Part shown: piece by piece, positions 2,037 through 64,000 of the stretch
Position numbering within the stretch: position 1 is the stretch's first letter
Layout: each line of letters starts with the position of its first letter
Source: Candidatus Avacidaminococcus intestinavium
Lineage (GTDB): Bacteria; Bacillota; Negativicutes; Acidaminococcales; Acidaminococcaceae
DNA: 64,000 nt
Assembly: GCA_018714505.1 (NCBI GenBank)
Contig: DVNI01000134.1
Coordinates: 16,752-80,751 of the forward strand
Reading direction: 5' to 3'
Program-made: the position numbers and the translations under genes
The notes under the pieces: model-generated
What the model was told of the DNA's origin: nothing
Databases searched by the model: none
Seen by the model: only the letters and a program-made list of their open reading frames with translations

Positions 2037-2840
2037 CTAAAAATGTTCTGTTGTTGTATACGGAAAACATAGTGGATAGCTTTTTGCTCCCTGCTTCAAT
2101 GTAGTAACTACAGCTTTTACATTATAAAGTCGTTCCAGCACCGTTTCTGTAAAAACAGTTTCTACTGTTCCGTCAGCAATAATTTTACCACCCTTCACCG
2201 CTACTAACCTTTGACTGTATCTAGCTGCATGATTAAGATCATGTAACACCATAATAATAGTAAGTTGACGTTCACGATGAAGATGACCTATTAATTCCAT
2301 CAATTCTAATTGATGATGAATATCTAGATATGTTGTTGGTTCATCTAACAAGAGTACTCGTGGGTTTTGTGCTAAAGCCATCGCTAGCCAAGCCCGTTGT
2401 CTTTCTCCTCCTGATAACGTATCTAATCTACGAAACTGCATATGCGTTAACTCTGTAAAAGCCAAAGCATCATCAACAGCCTTACCATCTTCACTACTTA
2501 ACTCTGCTAAAAAACTTTGGTAAGGCATTCTACCAAAAGTAGCTAAATCCCTAATTGTCATATCACCAGGTGCTCTAGGTGATTGTGGCAAAACGGAAAT
2601 AGTTTTTGCTAACGCTTTAGGCTGATAAGCCTGAATATCTTTGCCATTTAAATACACTGTTCCCTGCGTTGGAGTTAATAGCTTACACAAGGTTTTCAGT
2701 AAGGTTGATTTACCAGAACCATTCGGTCCAATAATTGAGACAATTTCCGGCTTAAGAAAATCCAAAGAAATATTTTCTAAAATAATCTTATCTTTATAGC
2801 CAAAGACTAGTCGCTCAGCTTGCAGTTTAACCTCCATCAA
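2037..2840 (-). CDS. Iron/heme/cobalamin-type ABC transporter ATP-binding protein (FecE family)
   Basis: Walker A GPNGSGKST, signature LSGGERQRAWLAMALAQ, Walker B LLLDEPTTYLDI. Confidence 0.93.
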   Translation of the reverse strand: MMEVKLQAERLVFGYKDKIILENISLDFLKPEIVSIIGPNGSGKSTLLKTLCKLLTPTQGTVYLNGKDIQAYQPKALAKTISVLPQSPRAPGDMTIRDLATFGRMPYQSFLAELSSEDGKAVDDALAFTELTHMQFRRLDTLSGGERQRAWLAMALAQNPRVLLLDEPTTYLDIHHQLELMELIGHLHRERQLTIIMVLHDLNHAARYSQRLVAVKGGKIIADGTVETVFTETVLERLYNVKAVVTTLKQGAKSYPLCFPYTTTEHF

Positions 2841-3847
2841 GTACGCATCCTCCTTTTCAAAAGATATAAGAAAAAGGGTGCTCCCAAAAAAGCCATAAAA
2901 ATTCCAACTGGTACTTCTATAGGACTAAAAGCTGTACGAGCAACAGTATCAGCAAACGTTACTAAAGCCGCACCAAAAATCGCTGCACAAGGCAACAAAT
3001 ATTCACAATCTGAGCCAACCACCAGTCTAGTAATATGTGGAACAATTAAACCAACAAACCCAATCATCCCGGCTACACTAACTGCCGACGCCGCTAATAA
3101 AGCCGCTAAGATAATTAAAATAGTTCTAATTCGCTTAACATTAATACCAATACTAGTCGCTACTTCTTCGCCTAATTGTAAGGCATTCAGTTCACGATAG
3201 CAAAAAAGTGTTCCCAAAATACCAATAATACTATAAGGCAAAATCATCTGCACGTGATTCCAGCTTCGACCTTGAAATCCTCCAGCCATCCAGGTAACAG
3301 TTCCTTGAATGCGATCAGCAAAAAAGACCATCAGCGCACTCATCCCGCCACCAAAAAAAGCCGCAATTGCAACACCAGCTAAAATCATTTTCAAAGGATT
3401 GATACCACGTTCCCAAGCTAAAAAAAAGACCGCTGTAGTCGCTGCTAAAGCTCCTAGAAAAGCTGCAAAAGGCACCAAGGCCATTTTTTCCGGCACTAAA
3501 ATCATCAAGAGCATTGCCATTAAACCCGCTCCTGCTGAAACACCAATAATTCCTGGATCAGCTAGCGGATTACGCAATATACCTTGCAAAACGCACCCTG
3601 CTAAAGCAAGATTAGCACCAACCAAGGCAGCGACAATTGTTCTAGGCAAGCGCAATAAATGCACGATACGATATAACTCATCAGTAGAATTTGCTGGCAT
3701 AATCACTCGCGCTATATTGTCCAAAGTCAAAGGAATAACACCGGCCACCATACTAAAGATAATCGCTGCCAGCAAAAACACTAAGCCCAAGACCAGTGCT
3801 ATTACACGTTGGCTCTTACGCTTATCGTTAACCGCGCTACTGAGCAT
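2837..3847 (-). CDS. FecCD-family ABC transporter permease
   Basis: LRLPRTIVAALVGANLALAGCVLQGILRNPLADPGIIGVSAGAG and GLIVPHITRLVVGSD motifs. Confidence 0.95.
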   Translation of the reverse strand: MLSSAVNDKRKSQRVIALVLGLVFLLAAIIFSMVAGVIPLTLDNIARVIMPANSTDELYRIVHLLRLPRTIVAALVGANLALAGCVLQGILRNPLADPGIIGVSAGAGLMAMLLMILVPEKMALVPFAAFLGALAATTAVFFLAWERGINPLKMILAGVAIAAFFGGGMSALMVFFADRIQGTVTWMAGGFQGRSWNHVQMILPYSIIGILGTLFCYRELNALQLGEEVATSIGINVKRIRTILIILAALLAASAVSVAGMIGFVGLIVPHITRLVVGSDCEYLLPCAAIFGAALVTFADTVARTAFSPIEVPVGIFMAFLGAPFFLYLLKRRMRT

Positions 3848-4803
3848 TACTCGTCACCCCGATACATATAACTACTCAAAATAGTCATTGCTTCTGCCAG
3901 TTGTGTTCCAGGATTAACCGTAAACAAATTCGCTGGCAGTTGATAAATTCTATTGTTGCGAACAGCACTTATATCATGCCAAATCGGATTTTCTCGTAAA
4001 TCCCTCCGCAAACTCTCAATAGCCTTATCCGCATCCCCCATCGTAATTACAAAAATTACTTCTGGGTCTTTACGCGTAACATACTCCATACTTAACGAAA
4101 CATAGGCATCGTAACTATCACTTACCTCATCGGCAATATTACCACCACCAAGGCTTTCTACTAAGTTACCACTAAAACTTTTTTTAGTTGCCATGCTAAA
4201 ACTATTAGGTGCTCCAAAAATTATTAAGCTACGCGGCGGTTGCTTGTTTTGAGCAGCAGTTTGTACTTTCTTATATTCTGCCATCACCGCTTCTTTCTTT
4301 TGTTGTGCACTACTTTCTGTTCCCGCTAGTTGACCAAATAAATCCAGCGTTCGCAAAACGTCTTCATAAGAGTTAATGCTATTAATCAAGATAGGTATAC
4401 CGGCCGCCTCTAACGGCGGGATAATAGCATGATGATACGGCACATCAGTGCCAATAATTAAATCTGGTTGTAGCGATAAAATTTTCTCCAAATTAGGACT
4501 ATGAATAATACCCGTTTCTGGTAAAGACGCAAGTTTTTCTTTAAGCTCTGCATTATAAGAAGTACTTAAAGGTTTCGCAATAGTTGTACCACCAGCTGCA
4601 TAATATATTTCAATATTAGAAGGGTTTAAAATAATAACTCTTTGTGGCTTTTCTGGAATAACCACCGAACGTCCAACACTATCAACTACAGTAATAGTTT
4701 GTGCAGCCCCACTATTCGTTGCCTTTTGTTTAAAAGTATAATAGCCACCTAAAATAGCCAGCAAAATAAAGAAAACTACAATAACTTTAAAAATTTTTCT
4801 CAT
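3847..4803 (-). CDS. ABC transporter substrate-binding protein (siderophore/heme/B12 type, class III), N-terminally anchored
   Basis: VDSVGRSVVIPEKPQRVIIL...LQPDLIIG motifs; N-terminal hydrophobic segment without an obvious lipobox Cys. Confidence 0.88.
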   Translation of the reverse strand: MRKIFKVIVVFFILLAILGGYYTFKQKATNSGAAQTITVVDSVGRSVVIPEKPQRVIILNPSNIEIYYAAGGTTIAKPLSTSYNAELKEKLASLPETGIIHSPNLEKILSLQPDLIIGTDVPYHHAIIPPLEAAGIPILINSINSYEDVLRTLDLFGQLAGTESSAQQKKEAVMAEYKKVQTAAQNKQPPRSLIIFGAPNSFSMATKKSFSGNLVESLGGGNIADEVSDSYDAYVSLSMEYVTRKDPEVIFVITMGDADKAIESLRRDLRENPIWHDISAVRNNRIYQLPANLFTVNPGTQLAEAMTILSSYMYRGDE

Positions 4804-18194: not shown

Positions 18195-18332
18195 ATCGAC
18201 AGAAACTAAAGCGTATAACTCCCAAAATTCAGTCTGCTTAAAGTCCTTTTGCCTGAGCGTTTCACAAAGTAGTTAACCCTTTCGGCTCCGCACACCTTGT
18301 GCGGTTTTTCCTTCAATCTTCATCCCGCAATA
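18195..18332 (-). ncRNA. Glycine riboswitch (apparently a single core aptamer)
   Basis: Minus strand GCGGAGCCGAAAGGGTTAACTACTTTGTGAAACGCTCAGGCAAAAGGACT matches the GCCGAAGG...CTCAGGCAAAAGGAC core; upstream of gcvT. Confidence 0.9.
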
Positions 18333-51748: not shown

Positions 51749-53056
51749 TTATAGCAACTTTTGTTCTTCCCATAGTTTAACCAGTACTTTTTCATATAAA
51801 GCTTGCTCTCTAGCTAATACATCAGTAATCTCACGTTTGAACCCTTTATTTTTATTAATTAAAAGTCCTAACTCTACTTTATCTACTGCTATTATTTTTT
51901 TATACAAAACTTGATCAGTTAATTCAATGACCTGCAAAGTCGCTTCACACAAAAGGCTAGTTATGTTTATATGTAAATTACGGTTAGTGCATTTAAGCAC
52001 TTCCGGTAAAATCTCTTGTAAAGACTTCTCATAATCAAAACTCAAACGATAACCACAAGCTTCAGCAACTTCAGCATGACCACTACATTCTTGTAAATCC
52101 CAAGTTCCACTCTGCGGCATTTTTACTAAAGCTATTTTAACCTTATTTCTTATTAATTCATGACCAACTAAATAATGTTCTTCTAACGTCAAACTTTTTC
52201 CTGCTGCAACCATACTCAACGCAAAATTAATTTCCCAAGGCGTATTCAATAAATAAGAATTATAAAGAGACTGTACTCGCATAATAAATTCACCATACTT
52301 CAAAACAATTCGCCGCAAGTTATCCGCCGCATAATTTAAAATATGTCCATTGCTTAATTTTAAGATTCCATCTACATAAGATTCTTCCATGGCCTCTCTA
52401 AATTCCACAGGCAATTGTAAATACTCCTTAGCAACCATTTCTTCACTCATACTATCAATCTCATAATTAATTTTATCACTGCAGTCAAAGCCAATCATAC
52501 TATAACCGTATAACAATACTTTAACTATATCTTCTTCTTCGTTTAAATCCAAAGCCGCAGCACCATAACCATCTTGATAGCCATTTTCTAAGACTGACCA
52601 AGTTACAGCGTCCATAATTTCTAAAAAGTTCTGCCCACTAGTTACACTAGCTTTTTTTGTCACTTCAGCTAATAAAGGCCTAATATTTTGTTTTGCCAAT
52701 AATGGTAATAATGACTTCGTGCTATTACTAAACCAATCGCAAAATCCAATCGTCATACTTTTGCGTTCAAGAGCTACTGGTCCCGCCCAATTAACAAAAC
52801 GTCTGACCAACGCTGCATTATTAGCATTAAGCTCCAATACCTTGATAAATAAAGCTCCCTCTTTGAACTCACGTTCCGTTTTAAAAAAATTAAAAGCAGG
52901 ACATTGTTTTTTAACGACAGCAATTAATCTTTTACCCTCTGGTAATTCAGCTAAAGACAACCAACCATCAGGAATTGTATACAACGCTGACAGCAAATTA
53001 ATCCCTTTCATATTTTTTTCAATTAATGCATAAATTTCTTCCTGATCTTTTTTCAT
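51749..53056 (-). CDS. Hypothetical protein, possibly distantly UxaE (tagaturonate epimerase)-like
   Basis: 435-aa ORF with clear start; weak by-eye similarity around NGYQDGYGAAALDLNEEEDIVKVLLYGYSMIGFDCSD and LTLEEHYLVGHELIRNKVKIALV. Confidence 0.65.
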   Translation of the reverse strand: MKKDQEEIYALIEKNMKGINLLSALYTIPDGWLSLAELPEGKRLIAVVKKQCPAFNFFKTEREFKEGALFIKVLELNANNAALVRRFVNWAGPVALERKSMTIGFCDWFSNSTKSLLPLLAKQNIRPLLAEVTKKASVTSGQNFLEIMDAVTWSVLENGYQDGYGAAALDLNEEEDIVKVLLYGYSMIGFDCSDKINYEIDSMSEEMVAKEYLQLPVEFREAMEESYVDGILKLSNGHILNYAADNLRRIVLKYGEFIMRVQSLYNSYLLNTPWEINFALSMVAAGKSLTLEEHYLVGHELIRNKVKIALVKMPQSGTWDLQECSGHAEVAEACGYRLSFDYEKSLQEILPEVLKCTNRNLHINITSLLCEATLQVIELTDQVLYKKIIAVDKVELGLLINKNKGFKREITDVLAREQALYEKVLVKLWEEQKLL

Positions 53057-53168
53057 ACCACTGCCTCCAGTTCATAGTCTACATATTATAAATATTTTTA
53101 ACTCTTGACAAAGATAAATACCGACAAATAAATTATCCTGTGCATTAAAAGTGCTTTTCACAAGATAT

Positions 53169-53364
53169 TGTGTATAAGTTATCCTCAAAATAGTAATTAT
53201 CCACCGCAAAATCAAAGTTATCCCCTGTTTTTTGTGGATAACTTTGATTTCACAACTTTTATTTCCCAAAAATTTAACCAAATTTCTCCAATTATTAATT
53301 ATTTTACTAATCTTTTCCTAAAGATATCAACAACCTGTGGATATCTTTGTTGATATTATCCACT
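53169..53364. promoter_or_regulatory. DnaA-box cluster
   Basis: TTATACACA (53169-53177, -), TTATCCTCA (53179-53187), TTATCCACC (53197-53205), TTATCCCCT (53218-53226), TTATCCACA (53233-53241, -), ATATCCACA (53336-53344, -), TTATCCACT (53356-53364). Confidence 0.8.
53209..53250. repeat. 15-bp perfect inverted repeat embedding DnaA boxes
   Basis: aaatcaaagttatcc-N12-ggataactttgattt. Confidence 0.9.
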
Positions 53365-53390: not shown

Positions 53391-54281
53391 TTACCTATTT
53401 TTAATTTGAGAGTAAGAAAAAAGCACTAACCCTATCCAAATACAAGTAAAAGCATACAAATGATTAGCTGAAAAATGTTCACCATAAATAAATATGCCCA
53501 ATAATAAACTTATCGTTGGTGAGATATATTGCAAAAACCCAATAATGGATAACGGCAGTAACTTCGCACCAGCAGTAAACATAATCAAAGGAATCGCTGT
53601 TACAATACCTGCACCAATTAGTAGCAAAATCATCAGCCAATCAACATTTTGCCAAGAGGCCCCACCTTGTTCTGCTAACCAATAAAGATATAAACAAGCT
53701 AAGGGACTAACCAATAAAGTTTCTAGCAAAATGCCCGTCAAGGTTTCTACCACTAAGGTTTTCTTAATCAAACCATAAAAAGCAAAACTAATAGCTAAGC
53801 TTAGCGAAATCCACGGAAAAACACCTATACTAAAAATCATAACTGCTACACCAATACCTGCACACATAATTGATAGTTTCATCAAGTTGTTTAATTTTTC
53901 CTTTAAATATAAAACGCCAATTAAAATACTGACCAAGGGGTTAATGTAATATCCCATACTAGTTTCTATAATATGTCCATTCGACACTGCCCAAATGAAA
54001 ATTCCCCAATTGCACATAATTGTCGTTCCAGCTAGGGCTAAAAGTACCATCTTACCTTTATCTGTCATTATCTTTTTAACTTCTGTACAAAAGATTTTCC
54101 AGCGTCCTAAACCAATAATAACCAGACCAACAAACACTACTGACCAAATAACACGCCACGACAAAATTTCAAAGGCATCAACACCATAAATACTTTTCCA
54201 GTAAACAGGTAAGATACCCCACAATAGATAGGCCGTTAAAGTATAAAAAATTCCCTGCATAAACTCACTTTGTTTTCTCAT
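53391..54281 (-). CDS. rarD: RarD-family EamA transporter
   Basis: GIFYTLTAYLLWGILPVYWKSI; GYYINPLVSILIGVLYLKEKLN; FLQYISPTISLLLGIFIYGE. Confidence 0.93.
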   Translation of the reverse strand: MRKQSEFMQGIFYTLTAYLLWGILPVYWKSIYGVDAFEILSWRVIWSVVFVGLVIIGLGRWKIFCTEVKKIMTDKGKMVLLALAGTTIMCNWGIFIWAVSNGHIIETSMGYYINPLVSILIGVLYLKEKLNNLMKLSIMCAGIGVAVMIFSIGVFPWISLSLAISFAFYGLIKKTLVVETLTGILLETLLVSPLACLYLYWLAEQGGASWQNVDWLMILLLIGAGIVTAIPLIMFTAGAKLLPLSIIGFLQYISPTISLLLGIFIYGEHFSANHLYAFTCIWIGLVLFSYSQIKNR

Positions 54282-57695: not shown

Positions 57696-60137
57696 TTAAA
57701 CAAGTTCTTCTTCGTCATCTTCTACAACAGCCATTGCGACAACTTTATCATCACTATTTAAGTCAATTAATTTCACGCCTTGTGCATTTCTTCCAAATTT
57801 AGAAATACCATCAACAGATAGACGAATAATCAAACCAGCCGCTGTAATAAGAATTATTTCTTGCTCTGGCATTAAGACAATAGAACCTACAACATAACCC
57901 GTTTTTTCAGTAACTTTTAAATTGATTACACCTCTACCGCCACGAGTCTGCATTCGATATTCACTGACTAAAGTTCTTTTTCCCATGCCTTCTTCAGTTG
58001 CAGTTAGAACTTCACCATTCTCAGGAACAGTATCCATAGAAACGACTAAATCATCTTTTCTTAACAAAATTCCTCGAACGCCATGTGCTGTTCTTCCCAT
58101 TGGGCGGACATCATCTTCACTAAAATGAATAGAAAGACCGTTTCTCGTTGCTAAAATAATACTAGAATGACCATCGGTCAATTTAACAGCAATTAAATCT
58201 TCACCCTCATCAAGAGTAATAGCATTTAAACCGATTCTTCTAGTACTATCAAAATCTTTAAGGTTAGTTTTTTTCACCGTTCCTTTATTAGTTGCCATAA
58301 AGAGAAATTGGTTATCAACAAAATCTTTTACTGGAATAATCGCAGTAATTTTTTCATCTTTCTCTAGCGGCAATAGATTAATAATAGAAGAACCTTTAAC
58401 TGTTCTGCTTCCTTCTGGTATTTCATAACCTTTTTGTCTATAAACCCTACCCTTATTGGTAAAGAATAAAATATTAGTATGGGTTGAACTAATAATTAAA
58501 TGCTCTACAAAGTCATCAACTTTTTTACCACTTCCACCTTTTATACCTTTACCACCACGTTTTTGATTGTGGAAAGTATCTAAACTCTGCCTTTTAATAT
58601 AACCTTGATGACTAATCGTGATAATAACTTCTTCTTCAGCAATTAAATCTTCAATATCAATATCACTAGTATCAATAGTTAATTCTGTACGACGTGTATC
58701 ACCAAAACGTCTTTTAATCTCTAAGATATCTTCTTTGATAATATTTAATACTTTATGTTCATCAGCCAAAACGCTTTCCAGCCAATCAATCGTTTCTAAC
58801 ACATCAATATATTCATCATCAATTTTCTTACGCTCTAAACCAGTCAATCTTTGTAAACGCATGTCCAAGATCGCCTGAGCTTGACGTTCTGATAAACTAA
58901 ACTTTGCAATTAAAGAATTTCTTGCTTCTTCTGCATTAGCACTACTTCGAATAGTAGTAATCACTTCATCCAAATGATCTAAGGCAATTTTTAAACCCTC
59001 TAAGATATGAGCACGTTCTTTTGCTTTAACAAGTTCATAACGTGTTCTACGCGTAATAACTTCGATTTGATGCTCTAAATAATATTGTAATACTTGTTTT
59101 AAATTTAACACCATTGGCTTACCATTTACTAAAGCCAACATAATAATACCAAAAGAATCTTGCATCTTAGTATGCTTATACAATTGATTTAAAATAACGT
59201 CCGGCACAACATCACTACGTAATTCTATTACGATGCGCATACCTTTACGATCACTTTCATCTCGTAAATCTGTTATTCCCTCAATCACTTTCTCTTGTAC
59301 AAGATGTGCAATATTTTCTATTAATCGTGCCTTATTAACTTGATAAGGCAGTTCATTGACAATAATTTTATTTTTGTTTTTAGGCATTGGTTCAATATGC
59401 GCTTTAGCTCTAATTTTAACAACACCACGGCCAGTCGTATAAGCACTTATAATACCTGCCGTACCCAAGATTTGTGCTCCAGTAGGAAAATCTGGTCCTT
59501 TAATCACCGTCATTAACTCAGGAATTTCTATCTCAGGATTATCAATCAACATAATCAAACCATCAATAACTTCGCACAGATTATGCGGCGGAATATTAGT
59601 TGCCATACCAACAGCAATACCAGAAGAACCATTAATCAACAAAGCAGGAATTTTTGCAGGTAAAACACTTGGTTCTTTTAATGACTCATCATAGTTTGGA
59701 ACAAAATCAACAGTTTCTTTTTCAATATCTTCCAGCATTTCCTCAGAAATTTTACTCATTCTGACTTCTGTATAACGCATTGCAGCTGCAGAATCACCGT
59801 CAACAGAACCAAAGTTACCATGACCATCGACCATCAGATATCTTGTTGAAAAATCTTGTGCCAACCGGACAATAGCATTGTAAACACTGAAATCACCGTG
59901 CGGATGGTATTTACCTAAAACTTCACCGACGATACGTGCTGATTTTTTGTACGGTTTATTAGAACTCATACCAGCTTCTTGCATCGCATACAAAATTCTA
60001 CGATGCACCGGTTTTAATCCATCACGAACATCAGGTAATGCACGTTGAACAATAACGCTCATCGCATAATCAATATAAGATTTTTTCATCTCGTCTTCGA
60101 TAAAGACAGGTAAAACTCTTCCTTCTTCCAGTTCCAC
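57696..60137 (-). CDS. gyrA: DNA gyrase subunit A
   Basis: [58 protein letters not shown] (GyrA-box like). Confidence 0.98.
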
Positions 60138-60155
60138 TATATCACCTATCCTCTA

Positions 60156-60926
60156 CTATTTATTCCAAAACAAATCATAAATTTGCTTGCCTATCAATAA
60201 GCTTGTTACACCTAAATAAAGCGGTCTTACATAACTAGCGCCATGTTTTATCGCCATTCTTGAACCAAAAACAGCACCGAAAATCATTGAGATTCCCATT
60301 GCTAGACCATAAACCCAATATACAGTTCCGCTAATTGCAAAAGAAAGTAAAGCCCCTGCTCCACTCGCAAAGTTTAGAGCTTTTGCATTACCAGCAGCAT
60401 CAACAAAACTATAACCTAAAAATAAAAAGGAAAAAATCAAAAAAGATCCTGTTCCTGGTCCAAAAAAACCATCATAAAAACCCAGACTAAAAACCATAAT
60501 TATAATACCCGTCACAAGAGTAAGACTAAACTTTTTTACATGGGAAATATCGCCCCAATCTTTACGACAATAAGTATAGACAGCCACTAATACCAATAAA
60601 ATAACAATAATATTTTTCATTAATGCCGCGGGCAATAAGTACACAACATAAGCTCCTAAAGCAGAACCTATAAACGATAACGGCATTAATAATAAAACTA
60701 CTTTTTTTTGTATTTTTCCAGCTCGCCAAAAAGAAATAAAACTAGCTAAAGATCCCATTGTAGCAGCCACTTTATTAGTACCCAAAGCAAGGCTCACTGG
60801 CATTCCTGTAGCTAAAAGAGCCGGTGTAGAAATTAGGCCACCGCCTCCCACTGTTGAATCAATAAAAGCTGCAATAAAAGCTGCAACAATCAAAAAAAGC
60901 ATTACCAAGGGATCAAATTGTTCCAT
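60156..60926 (-). CDS. TSUP (TauE/SafE) family membrane protein, full length
   Basis: IDSTVGGGGLISTPALLATGMPVSLALGTNKVAATMGS; FYDGFFGPGTGSFLIFSFLFLGYSFVDAAGNAKALNFASG. Confidence 0.92.
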   Translation of the reverse strand: MEQFDPLVMLFLIVAAFIAAFIDSTVGGGGLISTPALLATGMPVSLALGTNKVAATMGSLASFISFWRAGKIQKKVVLLLMPLSFIGSALGAYVVYLLPAALMKNIIVILLVLVAVYTYCRKDWGDISHVKKFSLTLVTGIIIMVFSLGFYDGFFGPGTGSFLIFSFLFLGYSFVDAAGNAKALNFASGAGALLSFAISGTVYWVYGLAMGISMIFGAVFGSRMAIKHGASYVRPLYLGVTSLLIGKQIYDLFWNK

Positions 60927-60940
60927 CAAATCTCCTTTTA

Positions 60941-61639
60941 TCACTCAATAAAATTAAAATAACAACCAATTAATCCGGTATGCACACTAATATTTACTTT
61001 TGAACTATCCATTTCATTACTAATCGCATAAGGATTATCTTGTAATAATATTTTATTTTCTAAAGGCCATTTCACACCACTGATAGAAACATTGTTGGTT
61101 TCTGCTAGTGGTAAAAGAGAAATTGCTACAGGCTGCTGCTTAAAATCACAAGCTATTTCTTCACCAGGTAACAACATTGTCATAATTTCTTTATGATCAG
61201 CTAAAATAACATTTAAGTTTTTCTCTTTTTTACTAGCTGCTAAGCTATAGATATTAGCATATAAATGATCAAAACGTCCTCCCCAGACGCCTGTTATGAT
61301 TACTTGGCTGTTATGAGGAATATCATTTAATAAAAGCTGTAAATCAGTATTATCTTTTTTTCTAGCAAAAGCATGTACAGCAATTGTTCCTTCTTGTAGC
61401 AACTCTTGTAAGCTACTCGAACAACTATCAAAATCACCATATACACGCTTAGGCTTTTTCTTAAGATCTAGACAATAATCAAGACCAGCATCAGCACACC
61501 ATATTTCTTCATAGTTAGTAGCTTGCTTGAGCCATTTAGCATCAGGTTTTCTACCACCGGCAATAACAAAAAACTTTTTTACCTTAGTAGAATTAATCAA
61601 TAAGCTCATTTGAGAAAATTGAACAAAGCTTTTATCCAT
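60941..61639 (-). CDS. thiN: Thiamine diphosphokinase
   Basis: CADAGLDYCL; RVYGDFDSC; KDNTDLQLLL; ITGVWGGRFDHLYANI. Confidence 0.92.
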   Translation of the reverse strand: MDKSFVQFSQMSLLINSTKVKKFFVIAGGRKPDAKWLKQATNYEEIWCADAGLDYCLDLKKKPKRVYGDFDSCSSSLQELLQEGTIAVHAFARKKDNTDLQLLLNDIPHNSQVIITGVWGGRFDHLYANIYSLAASKKEKNLNVILADHKEIMTMLLPGEEIACDFKQQPVAISLLPLAETNNVSISGVKWPLENKILLQDNPYAISNEMDSSKVNISVHTGLIGCYFNFIE

Positions 61640-61640
61640 C

Positions 61641-61949
61641 TTACTTATCCTTTTTCTTCACTGGAGCTGGTTTGATTACAATTTGCTCCTTTTCCTTGTA
61701 CACTTTCCACTCAGCATTACCATTACCATTTTTAAGCCATTCCATACTTAATTCTAGCAAATATCTATTTAATTTATCTACAATTTCTGCTGGTAAAAAG
61801 ACTTCTTTAGGCAAACTATCCTTATTTTTAAGGTTTTTATTTACACCACTATTTTGTTCATCTTTTTGATACACAGAGTTTTCAAAAGAACTTTCTTCTT
61901 TGAATCCTTTTAACATTTCTGCATCAGAAAGATTCTTTTTAATCTTCAT
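61641..61949 (-). CDS. Small hypothetical protein
   Basis: 102-aa Lys/Glu-rich ORF packed between gyrB and thiN. Confidence 0.6.
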   Translation of the reverse strand: MKIKKNLSDAEMLKGFKEESSFENSVYQKDEQNSGVNKNLKNKDSLPKEVFLPAEIVDKLNRYLLELSMEWLKNGNGNAEWKVYKEKEQIVIKPAPVKKKDK

Positions 61950-61962
61950 TTAAACTCCTTCT

Positions 61963-63900
<1,938 letters not shown>

Positions 63901-63901
63901 T

Positions 63902-64000
63902 TATCTTTTATATACAGAATTTATCCTAAAATCATCTTTAATCCGTTTTTTTAACGTAGTATGTGAAATACCAGATAAATAAATTATCTCATCAGTAACA
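63902..64000 (-). CDS. C-terminal end of a RemB/YaaB (DUF370)-like protein (truncated by window)
   Basis: Minus strand reads ...VTDEIIYLSGISHTTLKKRIKDDFRINSVYKR*, immediately upstream of gyrB as in other Firmicutes. Confidence 0.6.

Follow-up and report, generated by a model that had tools for sequence, protein, structure and literature searches.

A 196-bp cluster of DnaA boxes, here named DBC-1, is very probably, to judge from its sequence and its setting, a conserved DnaA-control element that is neither an origin of replication nor mainly a promoter site. The element is common to most of the Acidaminococcaceae genera examined, and its most likely role is to govern the amount of active DnaA that is available. 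Among the explanations weighed below, sequestration of DnaA in a structured complex is favoured over DARS-like reactivation of DnaA, control of a promoter, a remnant without function and a secondary origin.

The window, that is the whole 64-kb stretch of DNA that was analysed, forms the last part of contig C89 of an Acidaminococcaceae MAG; the end of the contig coincides with window position 64000, just upstream of gyrB. The assembly (G000) is an incomplete MAG, 86% complete, with 138 contigs and 1.63 Mb. The nearest matches of the window's gyrA are Acidaminococcaceae and Phascolarctobacterium records. One further record, L008, is titled Acholeplasmataceae; its gyrA is 86% identical to that of the window and its gene order is identical, and its name is therefore probably wrong. 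The features of the region are collected in the table, in which offsets are read in the direction of rarD from the first box of module A.

Table. DBC-1, its boxes and repeats, and the neighbouring genes (window positions)
Feature	Position	Strand	Remarks
gyrA-gyrB block	57696..63885	-	gyrA 57696-60137, gyrB 61963-63885
rarD-like EamA-family transporter	53391..54281	-	stop codon 27 bp before first box of the cluster
DnaA-box cluster DBC-1	53169..53364		between rarD stop and uxaE-like gene
Box TTATCCACT, one mismatch	53356..53364	+	offset -20-
Box ATATCAACA, two mismatches	53348..53356	-	offset -12+; in one arm of second inverted repeat
Module A first box ATATCCACA, one mismatch	53336..53344	-	offset 0+, rarD direction
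Module A opposing box ATATCAACA, two mismatches	53324..53332	+	offset 12-; 3-nt gap to the 0+ box that it faces
Second inverted repeat	53324-53333 / 53347-53356		10-nt arms, 100%, 13 nt between
AT-rich spacer	53242..53335		23% G+C; between the two + boxes starting 103 bp apart; without DnaA-trio
Module B first box TTATCCACA, perfect	53233..53241	-	offset 103+
Module B opposing box TTATCCCCT, two mismatches	53218..53226	+	15 bp after module B first box; within 15-bp inverted repeat
First inverted repeat	53209-53223 / 53236-53250 (span 53209..53250)		15-nt arms, 100%, 12 nt between; two opposed boxes with flanks
Opposing box TTATCCACC, one mismatch	53197..53205	+	36 bp after module B first box
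Box TTATCCTCA, one mismatch	53179..53187	+	offset 157-
Box TTATACACA, perfect	53169..53177	-	offset 167+
Promoter-like site TTGTCA-17-TAATAT	53083..53111	-	directed at uxaE-like gene; 9/12 consensus positions
uxaE-like gene, tagaturonate epimerase family (UxaE, PF16257)	51749..53056	-	downstream of the cluster

DBC-1 comprises two perfect DnaA boxes, four with one mismatch and several with two. The first-pass annotation of this DNA had reported two perfect boxes, four with one mismatch and one with two, together with two inverted repeats, and all of these are present. Over the whole window, boxes with at most one mismatch occur in ordinary number (46 seen, 43 expected). Six of them within 196 bp, as in DBC-1, is a crowding that none of 3000 simulations with the local composition reproduced (mean 0.4, maximum 4), and in 60 simulated 64-kb windows every 200-bp stretch held four or fewer. 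At least two perfect TTATNCACA boxes within 200 bp are found at two places only in the assembly, DBC-1 and a site on contig C29. With two-mismatch boxes counted, the window copy has the offsets -20-,0+,12-,103+,118-,139-,157-,167+, and the box at -20- is present also in L089, L090, L091 and L092. The second inverted repeat has the two ATATCAACA boxes as its arms. The 15-bp inverted repeat was considered as a terminator and rejected, as no terminator-like site was found there; nor is an inverted repeat conserved as a feature in itself, since between genera only the box parts align and the outer arms do not.

The position of the cluster is conserved. rarD was found in 40 of the 59 family genomes, and at 28 of 30 rarD loci, from 13 genera, a cluster of at least four boxes lies on its 3' side. 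At one locus (L095) an extra ORF stands between rarD and the cluster. L116 and L117 have rarD and no cluster, and the Succiniclasticum loci have no cluster near gyrA, indicating that DBC-1 is not indispensable family-wide. Genus g12 is without that rarD, and in two of its complete genomes (G021 and G025) the cluster lies directly downstream of gyrA. G021 appears to be A. fermentans DSM 20731, by its match to the published dnaA and origin coordinates (PMC4403523); the cluster after gyrA is absent from the A. fermentans origins listed there. The 278 kb around gyrA that were covered in 18 relatives hold clusters of at least four boxes at three kinds of site only: ahead of dnaA, in the dnaA-dnaN gap and at the DBC-1 position. 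The boxes themselves are better conserved than their surroundings, box columns being 71% identical across five genera as against 47% for the other columns. A match in L007 was set aside as a rarD-site cluster because it belongs to the dnaA-dnaN array of that genome.

The internal geometry is conserved as well. The typical cluster, read in the direction of rarD, is 0+,12-,23-,103+,117-,129-,138-, and two same-strand (+) boxes 101-104 bp apart are present in 21 of 30 clusters, from 10 genera. Random placement of the same boxes gave this spacing in a mean of 1.1 clusters and at most 5 (2000 trials), a comparison that, like the other nulls for box spacing, overstates independence, since the loci counted come from related genomes and the DARS-like spacing discussed below was noticed after the data had been viewed. 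The gap between the rarD stop and the first + box, by contrast, varies from 45 to 670 bp. The 101-104 bp spacing recurs in 9 of 16 dnaA-dnaN arrays (null mean 1.4, maximum 7, with the same caution as to independence) and is thus part of a plan common to DBC-1 and the origin array. Having 0+,12-,103+ in common with that array, DBC-1 could be a decayed remnant of a duplicated copy of it with no present function, and A. fermentans shows that dnaA and its arrays can be duplicated (PMC4403523). Such an account is nevertheless very improbable, as the spacing is held in 10 genera though the flanks diverge, and as it is the box columns that are better conserved.

In most genera the gene that usually follows the cluster belongs to the UxaE family, and in the window the promoter-like site directed at this gene comes after the cluster. 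The cluster may on this ground be taken for a DnaA-controlled promoter region of the uxaE-like gene, as the first-pass annotation had also considered, or for a site at which read-through of rarD is controlled. This explanation is unlikely, and the claim is weakened on two counts. First, the cluster is kept in five genomes in which another gene follows it: in L091, L092 and L107 it stands without uxaE and with ilvN or ilvB next, and in G021 and G025 the next gene is YbjN-like. Second, the nearest promoter-like site of the downstream gene is outside the cluster, which starts 58 bp upstream of the -35 hexamer, and the site is rated weak because the region has 5 such sites where 3.6 are expected, no commoner than in shuffles.

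The distance from the window to the origin had to be taken from relatives, because the MAG is incomplete and dnaA was not found in it. The sole Bac_DnaA match in the assembly (contig C136, 50 bits) was rejected as dnaA; it is a frame of 285-297 aa among short genes and has, by eye, the look of a helicase loader. In relatives the genes run dnaA-dnaN-recF-...-gyrB-...-gyrA. A DnaA-box cluster separates dnaA from dnaN, and L017, G021 and G025 have a second cluster before dnaA. GC skew switches sign near dnaA in L017, L128 and G015; in the window, where a check of the skew had been proposed, it keeps one sign throughout, with no switch at DBC-1. From the gene order, the one-signed skew of the window and the switches near dnaA, the origin should lie a few kb past the window's right end, in agreement with the earlier prediction that dnaA lies beyond the 64 kb. 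In L017 the dnaA-dnaN array and the rarD cluster are on one contig, ~14 kb apart, and by its gene order the window would likewise have DBC-1 close to oriC. It had been argued further that gyrA and gyrB would be transcribed head-on to replication. That holds only with an origin at the array itself; an origin to the right makes the minus-strand genes co-directional with the fork.

As the main oriC, which the first-pass annotation already doubted it to be, DBC-1 is ruled out by the skew, by the missing DnaA-trio and by the dnaA-dnaN origin of relatives. It is also not adjacent to dnaA, unlike the usual oriC in the family. A. fermentans has a bipartite oriC with DoriC entries (PMC4403523). It is of the same family, and its dnaA-dnaN array has similar box pairs and the 103-bp spacing; its oriC arrays flank dnaA, however, and the dnaA-dnaN one has a DnaA-trio, unlike DBC-1. 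The dense boxes, the AT-rich spacer and a spacing found in 9/16 dnaA-dnaN arrays could be read as marks of a secondary origin or of one piece of a split origin, the latter having been proposed before. This is the least probable of the readings. Of the 16 dnaA-dnaN arrays, 15 have a DnaA-trio, whereas no box of DBC-1 has one beside it; the matches that did occur, three in genus g2 and one in L111, are at a distance from the boxes. Nor is there a skew switch at DBC-1, in contrast to those near dnaA, and relatives have their origin in the dnaA-dnaN gap, some of them with a cluster ahead of dnaA as well.

The preferred reading is that DBC-1 acts by sequestering DnaA, which is held with moderate confidence and by analogy. 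DnaA is predicted from the boxes to bind DBC-1, where it would form a two-module complex on the opposed boxes of module A and those of module B. The first boxes of the modules, ~103 bp or roughly ten helical turns apart, would thus lie on one face of the helix. At ~14 kb from the origin, DBC-1 would be reached by the replication fork shortly after initiation. With its DnaA sites then doubled, it would hold back DnaA or compete for it, keeping the new origins from immediate refiring. Sequestration is favoured in that it follows a precedent in B. subtilis, for whose clusters such a role has been proposed, and requires binding alone. These B. subtilis clusters of DnaA boxes (DBCs, described by Okumura et al. 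2012) are oriC-proximal, and deletion of six of them leads to early initiation (PMC5295017, PMC13220808). Like DBC-1, these are clusters of DnaA boxes near the origin, outside oriC, in a low-GC Gram-positive lineage. Compared by description and not base by base, DBC-1 differs from them in being one cluster, with a family-conserved position and geometry and two modules ~103 bp apart, whereas in B. subtilis a strong effect required the loss of all six. DBC-1 further resembles E. coli datA, which is likewise short and non-coding, is made of clustered DnaA boxes and lies in the origin part of its chromosome. The function of datA needs IHF, and here the two may differ: IHF-alpha, the one subunit sought, had no match above the cut-off in 15 genomes, a result to be read with the incompleteness of the own genome in mind, and the weaker matches are probably HU.

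Plain titration has no need of a fixed spacing, and the constrained geometry therefore points to something more specific. Alongside a structured complex that sequesters DnaA, a DARS-like activity is a tentative alternative: DnaA-ADP bound head-to-head at module B would lose its ADP and the apo-DnaA would reload ATP, so that the locus would promote and not restrain initiation. In the E. coli K-12 loci that we take to be DARS1 and DARS2, from their map position and from the box arrangement itself, both cores measure 0+,14-,26-. Head-to-head boxes I and II are characteristic of DARSs and functionally essential (PMC10380432). DBC-1 shares with these cores a head-to-head pair followed by a third box, and exact 0+,14-,26- is present in module B of 12 DBC-1 clusters, from genera g8, g10, g21 and g23 (null mean 0.045, maximum 1, in 1000 trials of the kind cautioned above). 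The exact geometry was found in 0 of 16 dnaA-dnaN arrays and, in a comparison with Clostridia, once among 62 loci with 128 dense clusters. Allowing at most two mismatches, the pattern has 33 matches in 29 of the 59 family genomes, against 0 for a reversed control; 18 of these genomes have it at the DBC-1 locus, four of genus g12 at the orf102/ppk cluster described below and six of genus g13 between parB-like and soj-like genes, and it is rare at dnaA. Class-wide, 51 of 383 genomes carry the pattern, of which 22 are not members of the family; the reversed control has 5 matches.

The window copy itself deviates. Its module B is 0+,15-,36-, and the strict pattern has 0 matches in G000. A head-to-head pair of the kind formed by DARS boxes I and II is present, 53233(-)/53218(+), its second box carrying two mismatches, and in L090, a close relative, module B is 0+,15-,26-,36-. 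DARS-like action would thus explain the strict spacing in other genera, and the window copy gives no support to it. DBC-1 also differs from the E. coli cores in having two modules where these have one. DARS2 depends on IHF and Fis, whereas no IHF-alpha match rose above the cut-off in the genomes searched, and nucleotide exchange is more than geometry alone can show. In favour of this alternative, YabA was found in none of the 21 Negativicutes genomes searched, with a positive B. subtilis control. The broader proposition would be a DARS-type DnaA-reactivating element in Acidaminococcaceae, outside Proteobacteria: a conserved two-module cluster, its second module in several genera spaced like the E. 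coli DARS core, that switches DnaA nucleotide states where neither YabA nor IHF-alpha is found. This is doubtful, somewhat more so than a DARS-like action of the cluster as such. The earlier listing of DBC-1 as a possible DnaA titration or reactivation locus gains support, as a class, from conservation and geometry. DnaA control outside Proteobacteria is only partly known; according to a 2026 review, B. subtilis has neither datA nor DARS, and it is not known to have regulators that interconvert DnaA-ADP and DnaA-ATP (PMC13220808). DBC-1, conserved in place and geometry and with the DARS core spacing in several genera, offers a concrete locus for titration as against nucleotide-state models.

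Several other box clusters were seen. A second one in G000, on contig C29 (L118:871-967), lies between tadA on one side and, on the other, a ppk-like gene accompanied by a small orphan ORF. This orf102/ppk cluster was considered as a family-wide partner of DBC-1 and rejected, at least four boxes being present there only in g1, g7, g9 and g12; the orf102 site of G025 (L129:5474-5945), ~450 kb from dnaA, carries a double cluster of very high density. The g13 cluster between parB-like and soj-like genes has four boxes with DARS-like spacing (L190:1503-1544, similar in L191-L195), and the one g13 locus examined for it (L117) has no rarD cluster. The A. fermentans-like G021 carries dnaA twice, with box arrays on either side of each copy (L125:34-1194, 2751-4139), as known from PMC4403523. 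In another family, G015 has a dense DnaA-box cluster beside a rubrerythrin gene (L163:8805-8971), ~25 kb from dnaA. Elsewhere in the window, a glycine riboswitch aptamer is found at 18231-18323 on the minus strand.
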